64,000 bases of DNA from Paraglaciecola sp. MB-3u-78 (lineage in GTDB: Bacteria > Pseudomonadota > Gammaproteobacteria > Enterobacterales > Alteromonadaceae): positions 496,001-560,000 of the forward strand of contig NZ_PJCF01000003.1 in the NCBI RefSeq assembly GCF_002835935.1, read 5' to 3'. This document shows, in pieces, positions 5,519 to 50,306 of this stretch. The notes below the pieces were generated by a model. That model had not been told where the DNA came from. It ran no database searches and saw only the letters and a program-made list of their open reading frames with translations. The stretch's first letter is position 1. Every line of letters begins with the position of its first letter. Position numbers and translations under genes: made by a program.

Positions 5519-5700
5519 GAGTATAGGTAAAATAAAACGTCATTTTTCCTAAAATAAAAATTCATGATGCCCTATATTTCCCATATTGACATCTATTTTA
5601 CATTCTTAGGGGAGTGAAAGTCGGCTGTTTTTCGTCTATTACTCAACTGTTTTCACGTAATTCAGAATTCAAGACAAGGGCCTCCCACTGTTGTGCAAAT
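5519..5700 (+). repeat. Dispersed repeat R1, copy 1 (left part only)
   Basis: Begins GAGTATAGGTAAAATAAAAC and contains GGAGTGAAAGTCGGC, GTCTATTACTCAACTGTTTT and CCCACTGTTGTGC. The same order of blocks occurs at 9976-10239 (same strand) and 42562-42832 (opposite strand). Similarity stops at about 5700, where the IS91 relic coding sequence takes over. The last codons of that relic (ending 5662) are made from repeat sequence. Confidence 0.85.
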
Positions 5701-6290
5701 CGGCTTTCCTGTCAATTTGTAGATGCTCGCTATAACTTTAACCGCAACACCGCATTGCTCACAGGTTTCAATGTCGATGTTAAAAACCCGTTTAAGTCTT
5801 TGCGCCCAGGTCATCGACTGGTGCTTTTGTGCCCGTGTTTTTTTCTGCCCTGTCGGCAATGCTTGTTTAGCCTTATTTCGTAAGGACGGCGTTATTGTCA
5901 CGCGGTGCCCACTGCTTGGTGGAGGGCCACCCCGTACAAATACACCGGGAATGAATTTTGACAACAATAGGTTGCCCGAAGGGTGAGAAACAAGGAGGTT
6001 TCTCATCTAAACGCGTCAGATTAACTCTGGGTTTGGGCACCAGTGCCGCTAAACGGGCAATAAAATCCAGAGGCTCAAAGATTACATGACTGTCCCGGTC
6101 ACCGGTGGTGCCGTCACGGTAGGGTGTTTTGAGTGGGTAGCGCACCTTGCCGTAACTCGTTATTGCCAACCTTTTTTCTGATACCCCAGAGCGGGACTCT
6201 TTTCAAAATAAGTAACGGCACAGCCTTTCGAGTTTACCCCTATCCTGTGCATTGCTCATGACACCTGCATGGAGACTTAAGCCTGCCACA
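5662..6290 (-). pseudogene. IS91-family transposase relic (C-terminal half)
   Basis: Minus-strand pieces in more than one frame match the C-terminal part of IS91-type (Y2) transposases. From 6290 down: AGLSLHAGVMSNAQDR, GKLERLCRYLF followed by a TGA, VRYPLKTPYRDGTT, HVIFEPLDFIARLAALVP with KPRVNLTR, then MTWAQRLKRVFNIDIETC with a paired Cys (EQCG). There is at least one in-frame stop, and a frame change near 5990. The short extra stretch GDRDS after DGTT looks like a small duplication. The normal C-terminus is replaced by sequence of repeat R1. Not functional. Confidence 0.85.
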
Positions 6291-6965: not shown

Positions 6966-7319
6966 TTGAGTTCACAGGCAATACAGGCCATTCAGGCAAT
7001 CGAGAGAAGCGCACAATATAAACGCCATCGCCCAGAAACCACGCTACTCTATCAGTTGGTCGAACGATACTACCCTGACTTTACAGCAAGCTTAGCAGAG
7101 CAAGGCAGGTGCTTACCCAAATATGTTGAGCGTGAATTTGATGAGTTCCTGCGTTGCGGTCGACTTGAGCACTGTTTCTTACGAGTCGTCTGCGGTGACT
7201 GTAAACATGAGAAGTTAATCGCATATAGTTGCAAGCGTAGAGGATTTTGCCCCAGTTGTGGTGCCAGCCGAATGGCCAAAAGTACAGCATTGCTGGTAGA
7301 TGATGTGCTACGCCAGTAA
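6966..7319 (+). pseudogene. IS91-family transposase relic (N-terminal zinc domain)
   Basis: A 117-codon frame from a non-ATG start matches the Tnp zinc-binding N-terminus of IS91 transposases: RPETTLLYQLVERYYPDF, REFDEFLRCGRLEHCFLRV, CGDCKHEKLIAYSCKRRGFC and PSCGASRMAKSTALLVD. The two CxxC pairs expected for zinc binding are intact. It stops at 7319 with no catalytic domain following. It runs opposite to the C-terminal relic at 5662-6290, so the two are either parts of different copies or were separated by an inversion. Confidence 0.82.
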
Positions 7320-9709: not shown

Positions 9710-9976
9710 CCGGTGACCGGCGCGACCGTCCAGAATTCGAAACAACGCAGCAAAATTTCAACTGGGTTGCACCTTTAACTGGGGCTTAGCACCAAGGCTC
9801 TTTGTCATTACGAACATACTTTTAATTAAGATAGGAGCACCTATGCTCGCTGGTGCAAAAATCTGCAATATCATGGATCTGAACAGTCTGATATTTCATC
9901 ACAATGTAATTTCACCCGACATAAACCTGCACCGTACGCCAGTTAGCAAGCTCTAAAGTCAGAAAAATAAGATCTG
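9710..9976 (+). repeat. Dispersed repeat R2, long copy
   Basis: Full form of the repeat seen in short form at 7384-7492. The outer blocks are nearly identical. The middle (9768-9933) is unique in this window and holds a short open stretch (NWGLAPRLFVITNI) that I could not assign. Its right end touches the start of repeat R1 at 9976, so R2 and R1 may be two halves of one mobile element. Confidence 0.85.
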
Positions 9977-10239
9977 AGTATAGGTAGAATAAAACGTCAT
10001 TTTTCATAAAATGACAGTACTTGATGCCTCATGTTTTCAATATTTACCTCTCTTTTATATCGTTAAGGGAGTGAAAGTCGGCGACTTCTCGTCTATTACT
10101 CAACTGTTTTTACATAATTCAAAAAAAGCACCGCCCACTGTTGTGCAAACCAGTTTTAAATATTGCTTTTGTTTATGATGATGAACTGCTCTTATTCATA
10201 CAAACTTATCTGAGGCGGCGCTTGGGCTGAACGTCCGGA
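9976..10239 (+). repeat. Dispersed repeat R1, copy 2 (full length)
   Basis: About 264 bases, starting GAGTATAGGTAGAATAAAAC and ending near CTGAACGTCCGGA. It shares all blocks with the inverted copy at 42562-42832, including TATTGCTTTTGTTTATGATG and CTTATCTGAGG, which copy 1 lacks. No open frame of note is inside. 10240-10413 beyond it shows nothing I recognise. Confidence 0.87.
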
Positions 10240-40129: not shown

Positions 40130-41794
40130 TTGAAGATTTTTAACACTATTAATCGAAACAGTTTGAAGGGAGATATTTTAGGGGGCTTAACTGCCGCTAT
40201 CGTGTCCTTACCTTTGGCTTTAGCATTCGGTTTAGCCTCAGGAGCAGGGCCAGAAGCAGGTCTGTATGGAGCCATTATTATAGGCTTTTTTGCGGCACTA
40301 TTTGGCGGTACCCCTACATTAATATCAGAGCCCACAGGTCCTATGACAGTGATCATGGCAGCTGTGGTGACGGCTATGGTCGCGCGCTATCCTGATACGG
40401 GTTTAGCCATGGCATTTACCGTAGTTATGATTGCGGGGGTCACCCAAATATTATTTGGCGTATTGAAGTTAGGTAAATACATTACCTTGATGCCCTATAG
40501 CGTGATCAGCGGCTTTATGTCAGGCATTGGTTGTATATTAATCATCATGCAGTTTGCACCTGCGGTGGGAGTGACAGCTCCGTCTGGTGGCGTTACCGGA
40601 GCGATAATCGCTTTTCCAGAGACCTTACGTCATATCAGTATTACGGAGTTGGGTATGGCCCTAGGCACCCTGCTCTTAATCTTATTTACACCCCGTAAAG
40701 TGAAACAGTGGGTGCCACCACAATTGATTGCGCTGGTGGTTATTTCGTTAATCTCAGTGTTTTTACTGACCGACCCAGATATAAAACGTATCGGCGAAAT
40801 TGACGTCAGTTTGCCTTCATTAGTATTCCCTACTTTTACCCCTGAATTATTACAAACTATGATACTAGATGGCATTGTGCTGGGTATGCTGGGTTGTATT
40901 GATTCGATGTTAACTTCAGTCATTGCTGACAACCTCACGCGCAGTGAGCACAAATCAGATAAAGAACTGATTGGCCAAGGTTTAGGTAATTTGTTCTCAG
41001 GTTTGTTTGGTGGTTTGCCAGGTGCGGGGGCAACCATGGGTACAGTGGTGAATATCCAAACTGGGGCCAAATCGGCCTTGTCAGGTCTTATCCGTGTGTT
41101 CATATTAATTGTGGCTGTATTTGGTGCATCTGGCCTCATCTCGGTTATTCCTATCGCTGTGCTGGCGGGCATTGCTATCAAGGTGGGCATAGATATTCTG
41201 GATTGGAGTTTTATTAAACGCGCCCATAAAACATCCAAGCAAACCAGTTACATCATGTACGCGGTATTGCTGCTGACAGTCTTTGTTGATTTGGTTGTTG
41301 CCGTAGGGATTGGGGTATTTATTGCGAATATTATTACGATTGAAAAACTCAGTGCTTCACAAGCCAAAAATATTAAAGCTATAAGTGATGTTGACGGTCG
41401 ATTACCCCTTAATAAAGAGCAACGCTCGCTGCTGAATAAAGCCCAAGGACAAATCCTGTATTTTTACTTAAGTGGGACTATGATTTTTGGTGTATCAAAA
41501 GCCCTCTCCAGAGAGCTTGGAAGTTTGGGTGATCACCATGCTTTAATTGTAGATTTAAGCGATGTTTCTTTTTTAGATGACACTATCGCTCTGACTATCG
41601 AAAATTTGATAAAAGATGCACAAGAACTTGATAAACAAGTGGTGATGCTGGTGAATAAGCCCCGCACCAAAGACAAACTAATGCACTTGGGTTTTGAAAC
41701 CCTACTGACCGATGCTGACTTTGTATATGACCGCACCCAAGCGTTAACCTTAGCTCATCAAAAACTTCACAATGCCGGTGTTTTAATTGATTGA
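40130..41794 (+). CDS. SulP-family anion transporter with STAS domain
   Basis: 554 residues from TTG 40130, with AAAGGG 8-9 bases upstream. The SulP core of about 10-14 membrane segments spans about 10-410 (ISEPTGPMTVIMAAVV, VLGMLGCIDSMLTSVIAD, GGLPGAGATMGTVVNI). A C-terminal STAS domain (about 440-535) contains VDLSDVSFLDDTIALTI. In SulP proteins this domain regulates transport. Marine relatives carry sulphate or bicarbonate with Na+; the substrate cannot be told from sequence alone. Confidence 0.93.
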   Translation: MKIFNTINRNSLKGDILGGLTAAIVSLPLALAFGLASGAGPEAGLYGAIIIGFFAALFGGTPTLISEPTGPMTVIMAAVVTAMVARYPDTGLAMAFTVVMIAGVTQILFGVLKLGKYITLMPYSVISGFMSGIGCILIIMQFAPAVGVTAPSGGVTGAIIAFPETLRHISITELGMALGTLLLILFTPRKVKQWVPPQLIALVVISLISVFLLTDPDIKRIGEIDVSLPSLVFPTFTPELLQTMILDGIVLGMLGCIDSMLTSVIADNLTRSEHKSDKELIGQGLGNLFSGLFGGLPGAGATMGTVVNIQTGAKSALSGLIRVFILIVAVFGASGLISVIPIAVLAGIAIKVGIDILDWSFIKRAHKTSKQTSYIMYAVLLLTVFVDLVVAVGIGVFIANIITIEKLSASQAKNIKAISDVDGRLPLNKEQRSLLNKAQGQILYFYLSGTMIFGVSKALSRELGSLGDHHALIVDLSDVSFLDDTIALTIENLIKDAQELDKQVVMLVNKPRTKDKLMHLGFETLLTDADFVYDRTQALTLAHQKLHNAGVLID

Positions 41795-41800
41795 GCTAGG

Positions 41801-41907
41801 TAACCTAACCTGATTTTGGGATAAGCCATACCGTTCAGTACCGCTATTACTGCGCCAATCTTCGTTGAACTTGCTGTACAAGCATATTAAAGTTTGAAAC
41901 TGAAACC
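41801..41907 (+). repeat. Degenerate repeat R3, copy A
   Basis: Starts 7 bases after the SulP stop. Its ends, TAACCTAACCTGATTTTGGG and GTACAAGCATATTAAAGTTT followed by GAAACTG, recur in the same order on the opposite strand at 49421-49205. The spacing between the ends differs (about 60 versus 170 bases). Probably remains of the same IS or MITE. Confidence 0.6.
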
Positions 41908-42561
41908 CCATGAAACCCGCGATTTTGTATATTTAGTTTTTGCCCAAATTATGTAATGTTTGTAACTAGGAAAAGCCAAAGTTTAAACTTGGGGTTTTGT
42001 TTAACAACATACGTTTTAGTCATTATGGCTTCGATTATTTTCTTTTTTACGAATTATCTGACTATCTGAAGGTAACTGCGCAATCTTTCTTTTTTTGGGT
42101 TATGTCGTTTATCTGTCTTTCTCTGGTTTTAGTTGTTTCAGTTGAAGGGTATATTAAACTGTGTATCGCCTTCAAGAAATCGACAAAATCCGCAAAAGAA
42201 AAAGTTAAGAGCTTTTTTAAACGATTTTTTGCGGTTAAAAACTTTAGCAGTGAGCGGCCTTTCTTGCTTACTTCTTTTGGCTGTTGAAAAGAAGTCAGTC
42301 AGACAATATGGATGTTGTTTGAAGAAAGGCATGGATGCCGGTGTGCGAAGCACATTTTTGACTATCAAATTTAATCGAATCTGACAGTTCAAGGAATCAA
42401 CATCTCTTGACCCTATCGATTTGCTGACCCTATCGATTAGGAGCGTCCATATATGTCTTGTTAAATAGCATTAACGATGTCTGTCTTCTTTATACCATCA
42501 GACTATATTGAGCGAAAAAAACCATCATACGATTAATCAACGTTGACTGACGGCAATGAAT
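41908..42561. other. Accessory intergenic DNA, no confident gene
   Basis: Very AT-rich. Overlapping weak frames at 41997-42287 (one hydrophobic stretch, TTG start) and 42133-42384 have no recognisable domain or good ribosome site and I do not call them. At 42408-42421 and 42425-42438 the 14-base word TGACCCTATCGATT occurs twice, 17 bases apart; each contains the palindrome ATCGAT. Confidence 0.5.
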
Positions 42562-42832
42562 TCCGGACATTCAGCCCAAGCACCACCTCAGATAAGTCTG
42601 TTTGAATAAAAGCCGTTCATCATCATAAACAAAAGCATTATTCAAAACTGGTTAGCACAACAGTGGGAGGCGCTTTTTTTTAATTCTGAATTATGTAAAA
42701 ACAGTTGATTAATAGACGAAAAATAACCGAGTTTCACTCCCTCAAGGATATAAAAGAGAGGTAAATACGGAAAATATGAGGCACCATGTATTTTGATTTT
42801 ATGAAAAATGACGTTTTATTTTACCTATACTC
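42562..42832 (-). repeat. Dispersed repeat R1, copy 3 (full length, inverted)
   Basis: Reverse complement of the 9976-10239 repeat over about 270 bases, from GAGTATAGGTAAAATAAAAC (42832) to TCCGGA (42562). It shares blocks missing from copy 1. Copies 1, 2 and 3 differ by scattered substitutions and small gaps, so the copies are old. Confidence 0.87.
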
Positions 42833-42954
42833 TTAAAGCTAGCAATCCGTTCTATTGTCCAAACGCTGCCAACTGAACCCACGAAAATCAATGCTATTCG
42901 GGCAATAATTTCGGCTTTTAGCACTTTGTGCAGTAGTGCTATTAAGGCAAACAA

Positions 42955-43221
42955 CAAAACTGGGATATCTCGAAGTTATCGATTCGCCGTCCTTACAAAA
43001 CTAAAGCTTCTCAACACCCACTTGGCCTGACTAAAAAAGAACAGCAAGTTTTGGTGTTACTAGCAAAAGGCGAGAATAGCAAAGAAATTTCCCTTCAGTT
43101 GTCTCGCTCACTACGAACGGTTGAACATCATGTTACTTGATTTTTAACCAAACTTAATGCACCAAACCGCATGGCTGTATTGTTGCGAGTGCAAAACGAA
43201 CCATGGTTGTTGCCGGAATAA
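42955..43221 (+). pseudogene. LuxR/NarL-type DNA-binding domain relic
   Basis: One frame reads KLSIRRPYKTKASQHPLG, LTKKEQQVLVLLAKGENSKE, ISLQLSRSLRTVEHHVT, a TGA at 43138, then FLTKLNAPNRMAVLLRVQNE ending at 43221. This is a complete C-terminal helix-turn-helix with one nonsense codon inside the last helices. A stop before 42955 cuts it off from any sensor domain. It lies next to repeat R1 and faces the end of the lipoxygenase gene. Confidence 0.75.
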
Positions 43222-43325
43222 GAGCAGAAGCTGGCATAATTAGGAAGCGTAAAAGGCGCAACTAAGCTACCAAGAAGACTCGTTACTGAAGCCTAATTGG
43301 TGAGCACGCTGTGCCTTAGTTTACG

Positions 43326-45365
43326 TTAATACTGGATACCGGCCGTAAGACAGCATTCCATTCTAGTTTCCGCCACATCCTTGTCGTCGGTTCCTGGCAT
43401 AAGCTTGGGAAAGCCGTATTTATTCATAATTGCAGGAATGTCTTTTTCCTTATGTGAACCATAAAGTACAGGCTCACCTTTTTTATTATAGTACTTTGCG
43501 TTAACTTTCATCAGACTTAACTGAAACTCTTCACGCAGGCCTTGTAAATCAAGTCGCTGCGCTTCCGTTAATACCGGTCTTCCTGCTTTCACCCATTCTG
43601 CTCTCAATACTTTCATTTTAGGAGGCAATTGGTCTTCCGGGATTAAAAATTCGTACTCACAATCATAGATTAAAGTGGTACTGTGTGGTCTATAAAACAA
43701 TAGATCTGCCATTTTAGTGTAGATCAAATCAGTGGGCCAGCAAAGCGGTACGCTACCTTCAGTTAGTTTAGCCTCTTCAATCTCTGAAATCAGCTTATCG
43801 CCAAGTTTATCAATGATAAAGCCAATCGGCCCGCCTTCTTTCTTGAGCAATCGCTGAATTATATCTTCGATACCTTTAACGGCACCAGTTAGGTATTTGA
43901 CCCCTTTTTCTCCAAGCGCTTCAGCTATCGTTTCTTCCACTACTGTATCGTTTGAGGCCGGTGGCCTTACGCGAATAATAAAGGGCACAGGGTCTGTGTC
44001 GATCATCATATGTAATACGCTATGGTCAGAGGTATGAACAATCGCAGCATTCCAGATCACTATTGCTAGCACTTTAGTCAACACTTCTTTATCACAGATC
44101 GCTATCTCATCTGGAAACAAAGGCATATATTTTGATATCTCATGTGCCCAACGTTGGATCTCAAGCCAAATAATATCTTCTTGTTCTGGGGAGCTTGTTG
44201 GATCTGGTAACTTGTTTACAAAATCTCTCACAAAACTCAAAATTGGCGTGTAATAGTCTTTCAAATACTCACCGTATCGTGACGCATCAAGTCCAATAAA
44301 CGACTTGATGGGGCCACCTTCCAGATTATCGGGGTCCATAATTTCATCAGGATCGAGGCTGAAACCATAACGTGGGTAAGAGGTGTTGTTGCCGTCCCAA
44401 TAGTATTTTGATCCAGCCCAACTAAATGGAATTAGTTTTCGAATTTCTTCACCATTGGCAACAACCGGGCTCCATGGATACCAGGTATTACGGTTAATGA
44501 TTGAGCGTTCTCCTTCCAATACCACGTTGTCGACGGGTAAGGTCAAACGAAAATGCGGCATCAGTAATTGCTGAACAGGGTGCCAGCGAGGAAATACCGA
44601 CTTGGTAATTGCGTTTATGGTATCGGAGGGAAAGTGCACCTTAATATGGTCAACTAGATTAATTCTGTGGATTGCACCTTGCAGTACAAAATATTTCGCC
44701 AACCACCACGCAGACGATGACTGGTGCTTCTTCGCGTCAAAAACAAGATTTTCGTTGAACTCATATTTACCTTTGTCGTTCTTGTCTGCAAGTGCAATGG
44801 CGACCAATTCGTAGTTCCATTTAGTATCGTCAGTGAGTGGCAGTTTTCGACGCACAATCGCAATTGCGGGCGCAACATACTCACCTTCCCAAGGTTTTTC
44901 CACTACTCGCATACAAGATTGGTCAGATTTCAAGTATTGATAATTAGCATCGTCTTTTACTCCAAACAAAGCTTCATCAGCAGGATCAAGCAGCCCTAAA
45001 TATTTGCTGTATAGGCTCTCTGTGATGAGTTCTGTGAAGTGTGTATCAGTTAATGGTGCATAACCTGCAATCCCATATTTCTCGAATCTATCGCGTGCGA
45101 ATTCCGCACTTTTAAACCCAAATGGCGATGGATGCTTTTCGGTGCCTAGTGCGTTTTGCGTGTAGTAGTTACCTACATTTTCTTGCCAGTCTGCCCGTTC
45201 TTCATCAGGAAGGTTTGAGACGGTAGGCGCCTGACCATAGGGATAGTCGAATGACGTTTCTGGCCATGGTTCATTGTTTGGGTATAAAAATTCGTCGGTT
45301 CGGTATTGCATACCTAAAGTTTGTCTTTGACGTGCATAGAAGTGAGAAAAGTTGTTAGTAGTCAT
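43326..45365 (-). CDS. Lipoxygenase-like protein
   Basis: 679 residues. The lipoxygenase core is suggested by WWLAKYFVLQGAIHRINLVD, H240-IKVH-F, then WHPVQQLLMPHFRLTLPVDN and RSIINRNTW, in the family order and spacing. Later come VLAIVIWNAAIVHTSDHSVL with H444-x3-H448, fitting the third and fourth iron ligands. The first ligand, expected five residues before H240, is Ile235; the nearest His is H233. The chain ends in Tyr rather than the usual Ile. No signal peptide. AAGGGAC precedes ATG 45365. It lies 150 bases after the STAND ATPase gene on the same strand and may share its transcript. If active it would oxygenate polyunsaturated fatty acids. Assignment is moderate because similarity outside the core is low. 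Confidence 0.62.
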   Translation of the reverse strand: MTTNNFSHFYARQRQTLGMQYRTDEFLYPNNEPWPETSFDYPYGQAPTVSNLPDEERADWQENVGNYYTQNALGTEKHPSPFGFKSAEFARDRFEKYGIAGYAPLTDTHFTELITESLYSKYLGLLDPADEALFGVKDDANYQYLKSDQSCMRVVEKPWEGEYVAPAIAIVRRKLPLTDDTKWNYELVAIALADKNDKGKYEFNENLVFDAKKHQSSSAWWLAKYFVLQGAIHRINLVDHIKVHFPSDTINAITKSVFPRWHPVQQLLMPHFRLTLPVDNVVLEGERSIINRNTWYPWSPVVANGEEIRKLIPFSWAGSKYYWDGNNTSYPRYGFSLDPDEIMDPDNLEGGPIKSFIGLDASRYGEYLKDYYTPILSFVRDFVNKLPDPTSSPEQEDIIWLEIQRWAHEISKYMPLFPDEIAICDKEVLTKVLAIVIWNAAIVHTSDHSVLHMMIDTDPVPFIIRVRPPASNDTVVEETIAEALGEKGVKYLTGAVKGIEDIIQRLLKKEGGPIGFIIDKLGDKLISEIEEAKLTEGSVPLCWPTDLIYTKMADLLFYRPHSTTLIYDCEYEFLIPEDQLPPKMKVLRAEWVKAGRPVLTEAQRLDLQGLREEFQLSLMKVNAKYYNKKGEPVLYGSHKEKDIPAIMNKYGFPKLMPGTDDKDVAETRMECCLTAGIQY

Positions 45366-45515
45366 TATTCTGTCCCTTTTATTTATTGCTAGATCTTCAA
45401 TTAAATATCTTCAGTCAGTTCAACTGCCTTTTTGCGAATCATACTTATTGTGATTAATAGCTTTAGCGCAACCGTGCGCTAGTAATAATACGACTAAATT
45501 TATTGCTCTTATTCC

Positions 45516-48500
45516 CTATACGAATTCTTCGGAAAATTTATGAACTTTGCCAGCCGCTATGGTGCCATCGCCGTCTCTCAGTTCTTGCGTGGCTTGCTCG
45601 ATTGTTTCTCGCGCCGCGCTTTTGTCTGTGAGAGCTTGAAATTCTACCAAATCAGCCAAACTCTTTATTCCCCAGCCAAACATGCCTCTTGTCTCAGCTA
45701 GGTGAATACTTTCACACCAGTATTTTATAGCATCCTTTGCCTGTCCACTTGCTGCACAAAGCTTCGCTTTACATCGGTAAAGTTCGCTTTCTGCCCAACG
45801 TTCGTTAGTATCTTCCACCAGCTTAAATGCCTGATCAAGAACTGTTTTAGCTTTTTCAAGTTGACCTGACTTTACGCATGCTTGAGCAAGTAGCGTTAGC
45901 CAACATGGAACATAGGCCTGCGAACCAATGCTCTGCCAGGCTACTATACTTTGTTCAACTTGCTTTGTGCCCATTTCCAATTCGCCACTGTTGCAAAGGA
46001 TAAGACCATCGATCGCATTGCTCTGTATCTGGAATGCGAGTAAACCGTATTCTTCCGCTAAACATCTAAGTTCAGGACTGAGTTTAGCTACCGTAACAAA
46101 ATCATCGGCAAAGACTGCTTGCCATGCTTTCATTGCAAGGCAAAAACCTCTTGTTTGAGGATGCTTGAATTGTGTATTGCTTAGACTCAATGCCTCAGTA
46201 TACTCTTCTACTGCGGCTTGATTGCCAACCAAATAATAGGTCCATAATAGGAACACTTGCGCCATCACGTTAGGGTCTTGGCCATAGATAAAAGCATGGT
46301 CGCCGTGCAAATTAGGCTCATAAGTTTCCCTGCATCTGAGTAGGTTTTTCTCTGCCTCACCCAAGCGTCCTAAATAGAAGTTACTTAAGCCTAGTAACAT
46401 TTCTACTTCCACCTGCATATTGCAAACAGGATCTGCGTTATCGTTTATTAGTGTCTGCATGTCCAATGCAGTTTTATGCGATTTTTCATGCTGTCCGTTG
46501 ACCATATAATAAGTACAGACACTAAACAGTGCTAAAAAGCGCGACGCTACATCAGTGACAGACTCACACAAGGTGAGGGCTCTCTGACCTACTTCTGCAA
46601 TTTCATCAGAGCTATATCCAAAAAGAGCAATTATTGATGGGATTTTTTGAGTCTGAATATCTAGTTCTAATTTGTTCCGCTCGCCATTTTCGGGCAACTT
46701 GGATAAAACCTGCAACGCATTAGTGCATAGTTGGTGCGATTCTTGATCTGCAGAAGCTCTGCGTGCCACCGCTGCAGCCTTCAACCAATAATGAATAGCT
46801 TTATGTTGATTCTCGCTAGTTCCTGGAGCGTTGGAATAGTGCAGCGCGACTACCTCTGGATGAGGTGTCCACAGACCTGAAAATATACTTTCTAAGGAAT
46901 GTGCCACACATAAGTGATAGCTTTCGCGAGTAGATTTGAGCATCGACACGTAAGCCGCTTCCTGAAGTAATGCGTGTTTAAACAAATAGCTTGATGTTTC
47001 TCCGCTACCTCGACAACTAATCAATTCAAGTTTTACCAGCTCACCGAGATGTTCATGAATTTGCTCTGAGGTTAAGTCTGTATTTGCCTTTAGTAGTGTA
47101 TAGCTAAACTCCCGGCCAATAATAGAACCTAGGTTTAGCAACTGCTTAGCAGCACCTAAATGATGAAGCCGTGCGCTTAAAGATTCCTGTAATGTGTTTG
47201 GAATCACCAGTGAAACTTTATCATCTGGTCCCTTCGATTCTAGAGCTTGAAGTACCGACTTTGTATATTCCTCAATAAATAAAGGTACACCATCTGACTT
47301 CGCAACAATTGCCTCCCGCACGTCATCATTAATAATACCTGTCGAATCTATAGAGAGTGCCAACTGATTTGCTTGAGCGGCAGTCAGACGTTTTATATTC
47401 AATAAGCTAACGTGAGAATAATCTGTCCATGCGGTTTTGAACTGCGGCCGGAACGTGATTAACACTAACAACGACTCAGTAGGCGATTGTGCGAGCAGAA
47501 GGTCTAAAAATTCAACGCTTGTGGAATCAGCCCAATGCACGTCTTCTACCAAAATATAAGTTGGTGTTGTTGCTACCTCCTTGATGATAATTTGTAGCAA
47601 CGCTTGCAGCAATAATTGCTTTTGTTTTCCGGGCTCAACCCCAATAATTTCTTGTTCGCACTCTATTGACAACATTTGTGCAATCAATGGCAGGTATTGA
47701 TGTGTAGACAGCTCATTAGCTATTAAAAGCTCTCTAAGCTTCTCTATTTTTTTGTCATGTTCGTCTGCTTCATCGAACTGCAAAATACTATGTGAGAATA
47801 AATTAGCGACAGGGTAGAGTGTAGAGTTGTTGTGGTAAGACGAGCATTGCAGAATTAACGTTCGTACATTTTCTTCGATCGCAATTTTTGAGCTAATCGC
47901 GTTGACTAAGGTGGACTTTCCGTTGCCTGCATCGCCGCGCAACAATACTACTTGGCCATTACCTTCTTTCGCCATTAACCAGCTTTCATCCAACAAGTCC
48001 ATTTCGCGCTCGCGGCCAATCATCAGATGGCTATTTAGGGTCAACTTCGATCCTTGAATTCCTATTTCTTCGGGTCTATACACCTGAATGGGTTCTGAGC
48101 CACCTGGCATCTGAATAGTTTGGACCATTTTACATTCGAGCTTGCCTTTCAGCATTTGGAAAACATCATGGCTCAGATTGGTCTCATTAGCAGCACTACC
48201 AAGTTGCAGCGTAGACACTAATTTTAATACCGAACCAATGTTGCTAACCCACTTATTGACAGTCTTGTCTGCTAGTTCTTCTACAATACCAAAGCCGCAA
48301 TGTAGGGCAAGATTAAGTTGAATCTGAATTCCATTATTCTCGGCATGACTTTTATTAAAAACCTTCAGGTACTTCATCATCTCTTGTGAAGCTACTACTG
48401 CTCGCAGAGCATCATCTTCATGAGCAACTCGTACACCAAAGTAAGCAGTAACTAGCTCTGTGTCGTTAGCGGCAAGATAGCCTTCATATTTCTCAACAAT

Positions 48501-49019
48501 ATTTGTAAATTCAGCAACGATATCAGGCAAAACTCTGCGAAACTGTTCCTGATGATCTTCAGTGCCATGAGCATCAATTGGAGAAATAGCACATTGGACC
48601 ACGGTTATCATCCGACGTTCTGGGTCACTTGTTTGCAGTGGCTCAGGTACTTCTTCCCGCTCTTTTTCGTCCAATAAATGTTCAGTTTTTTCTATTTGCT
48701 GTATAGGTTCGGCATCTTTGGTAAGGAAAATGCCCGCCCTAGTGATATCAAAAAACCATGCCATGAGCATTACAACTGGCGATGCAGCGTAAACGGTAAT
48801 GATGAGTGCTTGTAATATCCACGCCGGGGCTTCAAATGCAGTTAGGATGACATTGGCGACTTCAATCACTATCCAAGAGGAGATAATATAAGCCACAGCG
48901 GTCGACAAGACGCGACGACGTTTGGCCTCAAAGTAGAGTCCGCTAGGTTTCTTTTTAGCATCGATTTTATTCGACACAGTAGTATCTTTATCAGATTGTG
49001 GTTCTTCTGATTTACTCAT
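45516..49019 (-). CDS. Membrane-anchored cyclase-like / STAND ATPase / TPR protein
   Basis: About 1167 residues from ATG 49019 (a GTG at 49040 is in frame; numbers here count from it). Two membrane segments (about 48-98; AVAYIISSWIVIEVANVILT) precede a class III nucleotidyl cyclase-like domain (about 143-325). The first metal Asp is lost (CAISPIDAHG for CDLVGST-type) and the NIGSVLKL motif lacks the usual Arg, so it is probably a dead cyclase used for sensing. An AAA_16/STAND ATPase follows with Walker A GDAGNGKST (369-377) and Walker B YILVEDVHWAD. About 500 residues of TPR-like helices complete it. Such proteins act as ligand-driven switches. It lies upstream of the lipoxygenase-like gene in the same direction. 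Confidence 0.88.
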   Translation of the reverse strand: MSKSEEPQSDKDTTVSNKIDAKKKPSGLYFEAKRRRVLSTAVAYIISSWIVIEVANVILTAFEAPAWILQALIITVYAASPVVMLMAWFFDITRAGIFLTKDAEPIQQIEKTEHLLDEKEREEVPEPLQTSDPERRMITVVQCAISPIDAHGTEDHQEQFRRVLPDIVAEFTNIVEKYEGYLAANDTELVTAYFGVRVAHEDDALRAVVASQEMMKYLKVFNKSHAENNGIQIQLNLALHCGFGIVEELADKTVNKWVSNIGSVLKLVSTLQLGSAANETNLSHDVFQMLKGKLECKMVQTIQMPGGSEPIQVYRPEEIGIQGSKLTLNSHLMIGREREMDLLDESWLMAKEGNGQVVLLRGDAGNGKSTLVNAISSKIAIEENVRTLILQCSSYHNNSTLYPVANLFSHSILQFDEADEHDKKIEKLRELLIANELSTHQYLPLIAQMLSIECEQEIIGVEPGKQKQLLLQALLQIIIKEVATTPTYILVEDVHWADSTSVEFLDLLLAQSPTESLLVLITFRPQFKTAWTDYSHVSLLNIKRLTAAQANQLALSIDSTGIINDDVREAIVAKSDGVPLFIEEYTKSVLQALESKGPDDKVSLVIPNTLQESLSARLHHLGAAKQLLNLGSIIGREFSYTLLKANTDLTSEQIHEHLGELVKLELISCRGSGETSSYLFKHALLQEAAYVSMLKSTRESYHLCVAHSLESIFSGLWTPHPEVVALHYSNAPGTSENQHKAIHYWLKAAAVARRASADQESHQLCTNALQVLSKLPENGERNKLELDIQTQKIPSIIALFGYSSDEIAEVGQRALTLCESVTDVASRFLALFSVCTYYMVNGQHEKSHKTALDMQTLINDNADPVCNMQVEVEMLLGLSNFYLGRLGEAEKNLLRCRETYEPNLHGDHAFIYGQDPNVMAQVFLLWTYYLVGNQAAVEEYTEALSLSNTQFKHPQTRGFCLAMKAWQAVFADDFVTVAKLSPELRCLAEEYGLLAFQIQSNAIDGLILCNSGELEMGTKQVEQSIVAWQSIGSQAYVPCWLTLLAQACVKSGQLEKAKTVLDQAFKLVEDTNERWAESELYRCKAKLCAASGQAKDAIKYWCESIHLAETRGMFGWGIKSLADLVEFQALTDKSAARETIEQATQELRDGDGTIAAGKVHKFSEEFV

Positions 49020-49164
49020 AATTCCATTTGGTTTATCCACATATTATGAATCAAGATTACTCTAGTCAATCACACCATTCAAGAGAATTTGCCTGCGGGG
49101 TTGTTCGTTTACCATCCATTTGTCCCTTAAACATTACCAACGCTCAATGACTGGTTATGGCACA

Positions 49165-49184
49165 AACCCGTCGGACAGCGGGTT
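49165..49184. terminator. Terminator-like hairpin
   Basis: Stem AACCCG / CGGGTT with an 8-base loop, followed by TTATTT. An outer CACAA / TTGTG pair extends it. It lies upstream of the STAND gene, so it would end transcription coming from the left only if a relic gene was there; its purpose is unclear. Confidence 0.5.
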
Positions 49185-49204
49185 TTATTTAGTTGTGCGA
49201 GTTT

Positions 49205-49421
49205 CAAACATTAATTCCCAGTTTCAAACTTTAATATGCTCGTACACTTGCTCTCAATAGCTGGCTATTCCTTCACAAGCTCGCCTCGATAAACACAGTA
49301 ATATCAGCACTGGATGCATTAAATACCTTAGCAAATCAGTTGTTACGTCCTAACGTACTGTTTTTATTAAAAATATTTTTAGGATCGCGGCACGTCTTAA
49401 CCCAAGTTCAGGTTAGGTAAC
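49205..49421 (-). repeat. Degenerate repeat R3, copy B (inverted to copy A)
   Basis: On the minus strand it begins TTACCTAACCTGAACTTGGG and ends GAGCATATTAAAGTTTGAAA, the same end blocks as copy A at 41801-41907. An extra copy of GTTTCAAACATTAAT lies just outside. With copy A it brackets the lipoxygenase/STAND segment in inverted orientation. The rest of 49041-49565 shows nothing assignable. Confidence 0.6.
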
Positions 49422-49565
49422 AAAATCATTGGGGATGAAAGTAATATCGAATAACAAAGGTAAATTGGAATAATAAAGGTTGGTGCTGTGTTGAAGTGAT
49501 CTTGATCTTTGCTTGCAGGGTATAATTTGGCATGATTTTAGCATTATTTATTATCCGGAATATTG

Positions 49566-50306
49566 ATGAAATATTTAGTTTTACTTAGTTTTAGCCTCTT
49601 GTTCAGTCCGATGTTATTGGCTCAATGGTCTGCTGGAGTGGCGACCATCTTTCCGTCTAATCCATACGCAGGAACAGATACCGAAATAAAGGTATTACCC
49701 ATCATCACTTACGAAGGAAAAAGGTTCAGTTGGCGTGGCCCCTCTTTGGCCTACAAACTCAGCGGATTGGAGCGGGGAGAGCCGTCATTTGCATTGAGTT
49801 TAAATTTGGCACCTAATGAGCTTGATACTAACGATAGCGATAGATTGAACGGTATAAAAGATCGTGATTTTTCGTTTATGTTGGGTGTTAATTATAGTCA
49901 TCCCCTCGATTTTGCGACCGTATCTATTTCATTGGAAACAGATATCTCTAACAAGCATCAAGGTCAGCGCGCAGTTGTTGGGTTGCAAAGAACACTTTTT
50001 ACTCACCCAAAACGTAAGTGGATGATTAACCTTGGAGCAGAATTGGAATATTTGTCTGCTGATTATGCTGACTATTATTTTGGTGTTGATGCAGACGAGC
50101 AAAATAATTCTGTTTACTCACAATACCAAGTAGGCAGTGTGCTTCCGCTAGGGGTTACGTTGGGCGGTTATTATCAAATAAACAAGCAATGGAATATGGT
50201 GGCAAATTTACGCTGGCAATCTCTTCCTAGTGATGTGAAAAATAGTCCAATTGTGGATGGAAGCAGTGCGGTTAATGGTTTTTTTGGGTTACTTTACGCT
50301 TTTTAA
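49566..50306 (+). CDS. MipA/OmpV-family outer-membrane protein
   Basis: Start at ATG 49566 (TTG just upstream is in frame). A signal peptide ending LLAQ is followed by about 225 residues of alternating beta strands: PSNPYAGTDTEIKVLPIITY near the N-terminus and an aromatic C-terminus, GLLYAF, typical of outer-membrane barrels. MipA-family proteins are porin-like or scaffolds for murein enzymes. No operon partner. Confidence 0.85.
   Translation: MKYLVLLSFSLLFSPMLLAQWSAGVATIFPSNPYAGTDTEIKVLPIITYEGKRFSWRGPSLAYKLSGLERGEPSFALSLNLAPNELDTNDSDRLNGIKDRDFSFMLGVNYSHPLDFATVSISLETDISNKHQGQRAVVGLQRTLFTHPKRKWMINLGAELEYLSADYADYYFGVDADEQNNSVYSQYQVGSVLPLGVTLGGYYQINKQWNMVANLRWQSLPSDVKNSPIVDGSSAVNGFFGLLYAF

Follow-up and report, generated by a model that had tools for sequence, protein, structure and literature searches.

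In canonical lipoxygenases (family PF00305), the first pair of metal ligands is located on a helix with a pi-turn. Soluble adenylyl cyclase-type proteins and the mycobacterial cyclase-AAA proteins carry a cyclase homology domain fused to an AAA domain of the STAND type (signal transduction ATPases with numerous domains). Among bacteria, Myxococcus fulvus LOX1 is described as an active 12S-lipoxygenase (PMC6612559, sections available to us), and Pseudomonas aeruginosa as using oxylipins of its own making as quorum-sensing signals (PMC6377657, abstract). That bacterial oxylipins form or maintain multicellular structures is an idea not definitively confirmed, according to the available part of PMC11011848. 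Here we analysed a stretch of 64,000 nucleotides (nt) of Paraglaciecola sp. MB-3u-78 (contig NZ_PJCF01000003.1), hereafter the window, in which the gene of a divergent lipoxygenase homologue adjoins that of a STAND ATPase with a cyclase homology domain. Among the papers listed by a full-text literature search, which most subscription papers lie beyond, none showed a description of a linkage between a lipoxygenase homologue and a STAND/cyclase protein.

An initial annotation of the window had placed a lipoxygenase-like gene and a STAND ATPase gene in one segment. Both genes are real, and their order, minus-strand orientation and intervening 150-nt gap could all be confirmed:

45516-49040, minus strand: STAND ATPase, 1174 amino acids (aa), with hydrophobic N-terminus, pseudo-cyclase, AAA_16 NTPase and TPR-like parts (Pfam, TIGR03903, PDB match)
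45366-45515, minus strand: gap from the STAND stop to the lipoxygenase homologue start
43326-45365, minus strand: divergent lipoxygenase homologue, 679 aa (open reading frame (ORF), Pfam, motif table, PDB profile search, hhalign)

The STAND gene is thus the upstream partner, with the enzyme gene 150 nt downstream on the same strand. In a scan that gave about as many sites over the whole region as in shuffled sequences, the minus strand of the gap was free of listed terminator-like and promoter-like sites. This would fit a single STAND-enzyme transcript, without proving one.

Judged from the single sequence, the lipoxygenase homology is partial. Pfam PF00305 matched residues 186-280 only (31.3 bits, cut-off 23.6) and a PDB search gave one match (3.9e-5). 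The homology is firm once relatives are added: for a profile of seven relatives, every one of the 52 distinct PDB entries listed at E<=0.01 bears the name of a lipoxygenase, and hhalign aligned the clade with eight canonical bacterial lipoxygenases (99.6%, E 1.5e-23). Speaking against membership of the family, PF00305 scored 22.0 bits, below cut-off, with the copy of a Haliea sp. metagenome-assembled genome (MAG) and did not match the L005/L002 and L012 copies. A scan of genome contigs with the window enzyme alone found no relative, and one with a two-row alignment found two loci. The clade comprises seven members: the window enzyme, the Haliea copy (L004, 53% identical to the window enzyme), Yersinia alsatica L005, L011, L012, L027 and L028. 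These seven were split from 23 canonical lipoxygenases with 100/100 support, in a tree from which the long-branch sequences L014, L105 and L106, flagged by a warning in an earlier tree, were left out together with L100, L030 and L032. L110, in which the enzyme is in two pieces, was excluded from the motif table and the trees. No enzyme relative was found in viral contigs or in plasmids, and the distribution in the genomes searched is rare and patchy. By eye, no signal peptide was evident at the enzyme N-terminus, and the protein is apparently cytosolic.

The metal site of this clade is altered. The putative ligands of the window enzyme are H240 and H244, H444 and H448, and the C-terminal carboxylate of Y679. 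The first histidine pair reads HxxxH in all seven clade members, whereas 26 of 27 canonical lipoxygenases have HxxxxH, and the alignment places the clade HxxxH on the canonical first pair with one gap. Because of this spacing, we class the window enzyme as a lipoxygenase homologue and not as a canonical lipoxygenase. The chain ends with Tyr (five) or Phe (two) in 7/7 members, compared to Ile or Val in 26/27 canonical sequences; L014 is the exception among the latter for both changes. The second pair, HxxxH (HTSDH in the window), is kept in the six members that read through it; the six that read through both motifs retain every histidine position. The L011 homologue (L011:1405-3003, minus strand) is broken by an in-frame TAG just past the first histidine of the second motif, reflecting a pseudogene, a sequencing error or recoding; its C-terminus was taken from the next open piece. 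Deletion of one residue between the first two histidines could remove the pi-turn, and the terminal carboxylate of Tyr or Phe could still bind metal. For M. fulvus LOX1, the stated ligands His372 and His376 imply HxxxH; that enzyme is active, but with an iron load of 5.6% and low turnover (PMC6612559, available sections). Two remoter lipoxygenase-like proteins, encoded at L105:8203-9681 and L106:8267-9865, also carry HxxxH and have no cyclase neighbours.

The STAND partner in the window is built from four regions:

48696-48953, minus strand: N-terminal hydrophobic module, probably two membrane helices (residues ~30-115; hydrophobicity)
48051-48629, minus strand: class III cyclase homology domain without catalytic residues (residues ~138-330; PDB match, own hidden Markov model (HMM), alignment)
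47463-48020, minus strand: AAA_16 NTPase domain with Walker A and B intact (residues 341-526; Pfam)
45582-46199, minus strand: TPR-like region (residues 948-1153; TPR_MalT 31.6 bits, curated cut-off 45)

Hydrophobic windows cover residues ~44-99, and the N-terminal part alone (about residues 25-124) finds matches in further ORFs from the same genus and order. The cyclase-like domain matched CyaB in the PDB at 1.4e-8 and did not match Pfam Guanylate_cyc; the call is based on the PDB match, on TIGR03903 and on our own HMM, of which it was not a seed, and not on Pfam. As judged by alignment with the cyclase domains of L011, L012 and L028, its metal aspartates are replaced by Ala and Glu, the Asn by Lys and the Arg by Thr. 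The Haliea domain, in the same alignment, has Gln and Glu in place of the metal aspartates and Ala in place of the Arg. The domains of L011, L012 and L028 keep the metal aspartates, L011 lacking the Asn. AAA_16 was found at 4.5e-19, above cut-off, with Walker A GDAGNGKS at 369 and Walker B ILVEDVHWAD at 496. TPR models matched under their curated cut-offs (best 1.3e-7); TPR_12 passes in the Haliea copy. The description of this protein as a membrane-anchored, cyclase-like STAND therefore fits the window itself, although the N-terminus is not conserved in the pair, being a TIR domain in Haliea, and the window cyclase domain lacks catalytic residues.

In five of the seven clade loci, the gene directly adjacent on the same strand codes for a class III cyclase or cyclase-like domain (CYC), within a protein of different architecture each time:

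Window partner: hydrophobic-pseudoCYC-AAA-TPR, gap 150 nt
Haliea L004 partner: TIR-CYC-AAA-TPR (STAND), gap 18 nt
L011 partner: CYC-AAA, cut by the contig end, gap 61 nt
L012 partner: 7TMR-DISM-CYC (DISMED2, seven-transmembrane (7TM) and CYC), no AAA part, gap -7 nt (overlap)
L028 partner: kinase-AAA-GAF-CYC, gap -107 nt (by the first possible start, hence start-codon dependent)

The strand is shared in 5/5, with the cyclase protein first in three loci and the enzyme first in two. With the same HMMs, 40 background stretches (800 kb, from the two genomes G000 and G529) contained one class III cyclase gene, no STAND-AAA, no kinase and six GGDEF genes. The chance of 5/7 would be roughly 2e-12, or 1e-8 at the upper limit of the background rate, if loci are taken as independent with about one gene per kb; common descent may violate this independence. 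Since five of seven loci compare with one cyclase gene in 800 kb, the enzyme-cyclase/STAND pairing looks non-random. Co-occurrence elsewhere, suggested initially as a test of the pair, was thus observed: the Haliea MAG has a STAND-enzyme pair 18 nt apart, and three more genomes have other cyclase-domain partners, two with an AAA part. Some of the neighbours found served as seeds of our own domain HMMs, and those matches are by construction. Pfam is the basis for the AAA domains of the window and L004 partners, the cyclase and TIR domains of L004, the partner domains of L011 and L012, and the neighbours in L028, L029, L033, L038 and L013; those in L030, L031, L032, L036 and L108 were recognised by our own HMMs alone. 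Contig ends cut L011, L094, L097, L100, L103 and L104, and L109 starts at one, so that absence of neighbours there is weak information.

Further genes were noted around clade members. In L028, a protein with a cyclic nucleotide monophosphate (cNMP)-binding domain, its N-terminal half hydrophobic by eye, is encoded directly upstream of the enzyme on the same strand (L028:10592-11290, minus strand). The cyclase gene follows the enzyme gene, which at this locus would therefore stand between a candidate reader and a candidate source of a cyclic nucleotide. A peroxidase-family gene, KatG-like by eye, lies two genes downstream of the Haliea pair (L004:10366-12756, minus strand), and an RHS-repeat-like protein, also recognised by eye, is encoded upstream of the unpartnered member L027 (L027:2-2293, plus strand).

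A parallel exists among canonical lipoxygenases. Eight of the 27 (L029, L030, L031, L032, L033, L036, L038 and L108) are placed tail-to-tail with the gene of a ~1700-aa kinase-AAA-GGDEF protein, at gaps of 65-718 nt. Pfam gives kinase-AAA_16-GAF-GGDEF for three of these proteins and the other five were assigned by our own HMMs alone. The eight lipoxygenases form one clade (96/95), yet carry three family codes (f1, f134, f297). In L013 a kinase-AAA protein is encoded 2.8 kb from the lipoxygenase; no such protein was found with the remaining canonical lipoxygenases within the stretches examined, a number of these stretches being truncated at contig ends. Together with the pairing in the HxxxH clade, this means that STAND-type proteins bearing nucleotide-cyclase parts accompany two distant branches of bacterial lipoxygenases. 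In L037 and L097, small GGDEF genes next to a canonical lipoxygenase gene were considered as a further linkage and dismissed, being compatible with chance at the background rate (calculated with n=18, the correct n being 19). In L013, the gene of a RoxA-like cytochrome c protein (L013:3965-5896, plus strand), a possible second redox partner, overlaps the start of the canonical lipoxygenase gene.

The pair is located in a variable block, surrounded by repeats and relics:

41990-49157 (about): variable block that differs from the relative G001, with flanks matching on both sides (alignment to G001)
41800-41833: outer inverted repeat (R3), left copy, partner 49388-49421
49388-49421: outer inverted repeat (R3), right copy, partner 41800-41833
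41875-41902: inner repeat, left copy, a dispersed genomic repeat, partner 49219-49246
49219-49246: inner repeat, right copy, partner 41875-41902
42562-42832: R1 repeat copy (three overlapping repeat pairs)
43027-43221, plus strand: LuxR-type helix-turn-helix (HTH) relic with in-frame stop (recognised by eye in translation)
40130-41794: SulP/BicA-type transporter, flanking the pair
49563-50306: MipA-type protein, flanking the pair on the other side

Among the relatives, G001 has the transporter most similar to that of the window (99%). Its flanks match the window up to 41989 and from 49158, and the sole match within the block is 66 nt long (42494-42559). At the same site (L071:1062-7484), G001 carries an IS110-type transposase, a DUF772 transposase piece and a HipA/HTH pair between the matching flanks. 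An enzyme relative (E<=0.001) was found in 0/21 same-genus genomes and, among the 60 genomes searched, in the window's own genome only. The segment is therefore accessory, and the site carries exchangeable cargo in the one genome pair compared.

An acquired island between R3 inverted repeats had been proposed for this segment, with an R1 copy and a LuxR relic inside. The R1 copy and the relic are both present, as listed above; other R1 copies (5519-5707 and 9976-10239) flank a zinc-binding fragment of an IS91-type transposase (6966-7319). The repeat pairs exist as well, the outer one with 34 nt at 79% identity, searched within the window only, and the inner one with 28 nt at 96%. Core patterns from outer and inner copies had two window matches each, compared to means of 0.00 and 0.03 in 100 shuffles. 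Of that proposal the accessory nature is retained, while the repeats as ends of an acquired or transposable element had to be rejected. The inner inverted repeat also encloses the other cargo in G001 (27 nt, 100%), and the window's genome contains 12 matches to the repeat core at <=2 mismatches (reversed control 0); because the repeat is dispersed and common to both genomes, it is not evidence for element ends.

What could the pair do? Gene content, homology, motif changes, recurrence and same-strand packing lead us to a tentative reading, to which we give a little less than an even chance: the two genes are accessory cargo and encode a signalling module that works by lipid oxidation. The enzyme would most likely be a dioxygenase of unsaturated fatty acids or acyl lipids that uses a single non-heme metal. 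On the STAND side, a stimulus would be received by the TPR-like repeats or the N-terminal domain, the NTPase would then change state, and the dead cyclase domain would relay the change as a docking or nucleotide-sensing part and not as a catalyst. Enzyme and STAND would be co-expressed, the switch either controlling the enzyme or reading its product. The constant element would be the oxygenase-type enzyme and the variable one the sensor protein. More doubtful is a generalisation in which bacterial lipoxygenase homologues are the enzymatic limb of STAND- or cyclase-type receptors. A lipid oxygenase would here be wired to interchangeable sensors (membrane, TIR, kinase, 7TM), with oxidised lipids as an intracellular signal linked with cyclic nucleotides and the HxxxH clade as the dedicated enzyme.

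Several observations weigh against a signalling module. Two clade members, Yersinia alsatica L005 and L027 (G1266), have no cyclase-type neighbour, nor have the remoter HxxxH proteins L105 and L106, and counting both of these gives 5/9. The five linked members group together (66/56 in one tree, 85/94 in the other) and may share one origin, hence not representing five independent events. The L012 partner is devoid of an AAA part, and 19 of the 27 canonical lipoxygenases do not directly adjoin a kinase-AAA protein. Structure prediction of the enzyme from three sequences gave an unusable model, with a mean predicted local distance difference test (pLDDT) score of 37. Catalytic residues are absent from the cyclase domains of window and Haliea; the cyclase domains next to the same enzyme type in the three related loci L011, L012 and L028 have retained the metal-binding residues. 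A shared second messenger as explanation for all five loci was rejected, the window and Haliea domains being degenerate. Finally, no polyunsaturated fatty acid (PUFA) synthase above the curated cut-off (PfaA) was found in the window's genome, so that the substrate may be imported or be something other than a PUFA.

Other explanations of the pair have to be considered. The initial annotation had thought of a stress- or attack-triggered lipid oxidation system, and in abortive infection or inter-bacterial defence the STAND would sense phage or attack and trigger the oxygenase, membrane lipids being damaged and the cell halted. Anti-phage systems often contain STAND and TIR proteins, the Haliea copy bears a TIR domain, and the location is accessory, at a site holding a HipA/HTH pair in the relative. 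However, PADLOC gave no match for the enzyme, only weak ones in the ATPase region for the STAND (best E 2e-4), TIR-level matches only for the Haliea partner, and none at 1e-4 for four flanking window genes (the immediate neighbours SulP and MipA not among them). A membrane without PUFA offers little lipoxygenase substrate, which in a genome without PfaA above cut-off also speaks against lipid damage, and the 7TM-cyclase and kinase-GAF-cyclase partners resemble ordinary signalling. Nothing specific supports a defence role, which we consider quite unlikely. The lack of a PUFA synthase above cut-off would instead suit foraging on, or interaction with, algae or other eukaryotes, where the enzyme would oxidise exogenous PUFAs and the STAND merely regulate a catabolic or detoxification gene. 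The rare, patchy distribution agrees with this, as does the activity of bacterial lipoxygenases on arachidonic, linoleic and other PUFAs (PMC11011848, available part). Nevertheless, the absence of an evident signal peptide, and direct partners that are signalling-type proteins in the five linked loci, not lipases or transporters, make foraging unlikely too.

The enzyme homologue could also have ceased to be an oxygenase and serve the STAND as a partner that binds lipids or provides a scaffold. Canonical spacing and the C-terminal Ile/Val are both altered clade-wide, the Pfam match is partial, and M. fulvus LOX1, with its implied HxxxH, is poorly loaded with iron and slow (5.6%, PMC6612559). 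Conservation of the histidine positions of both motifs and of the C-terminal end argues against this, and the turnover reported for LOX1 in the accessible sections is low but measurable; a loss of activity thus seems improbable to us. Chance, with two unrelated accessory genes landing in a hotspot, could draw on the variability of the site and on clade members without a partner. It is hardly credible given 5/7 recurrence against one cyclase gene in 800 kb and a shared strand in 5/5.

The cellular role of bacterial lipoxygenases is largely open, and a recurrent STAND/cyclase link makes it testable and yields candidate regulators of these enzymes. The altered metal site of the clade also raises the question to what extent catalysis depends on the canonical lipoxygenase geometry.

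The locus can be compared with described systems. On the STAND side, the profile of the TOMM system kinase/cyclase fusion protein (TIGR03903) aligns over residues 138-1131, but the score of 426.8 bits is below the cut-off of 705.75, the profile is matched only from position 281, and the window STAND has no kinase domain. The fusion of cyclase homology and STAND-type AAA domains recalls the soluble adenylyl cyclase-type and mycobacterial proteins, in contrast to which the window cyclase domain is without metal-binding and transition-state residues. Pycsar is approached at the domain level in PADLOC, where the L012 and L028 cyclases match PycC models and the L028 cNMP-binding protein effector models; the window differs by its degenerate cyclase and, according to Pfam, by the lack of a cNMP-binding domain in enzyme and STAND. 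The P. aeruginosa oxylipin system shares the use of bacterially made oxylipins as signals, but there they derive from oleic acid through a diol synthase operon with a LysR-type regulator, and its abstract names neither a lipoxygenase nor a STAND protein (PMC6377657). M. fulvus LOX1, likened here by description and not by sequence, is bacterial and active with an implied HxxxH; its second motif is His-Ala-Ala-Val-Asn and the available sections mention no STAND partner (PMC6612559). The lipoxygenase family itself (PF00305) shares a homologous catalytic core, the second motif HxxxH and a chain that ends at the C-terminal ligand position. From this family the window clade is set apart by its first motif HxxxH, its Tyr/Phe C-terminus and its separate position in the tree (100/100), and what is new is this divergent lipoxygenase-related clade with a recurrent STAND/cyclase-type partner.

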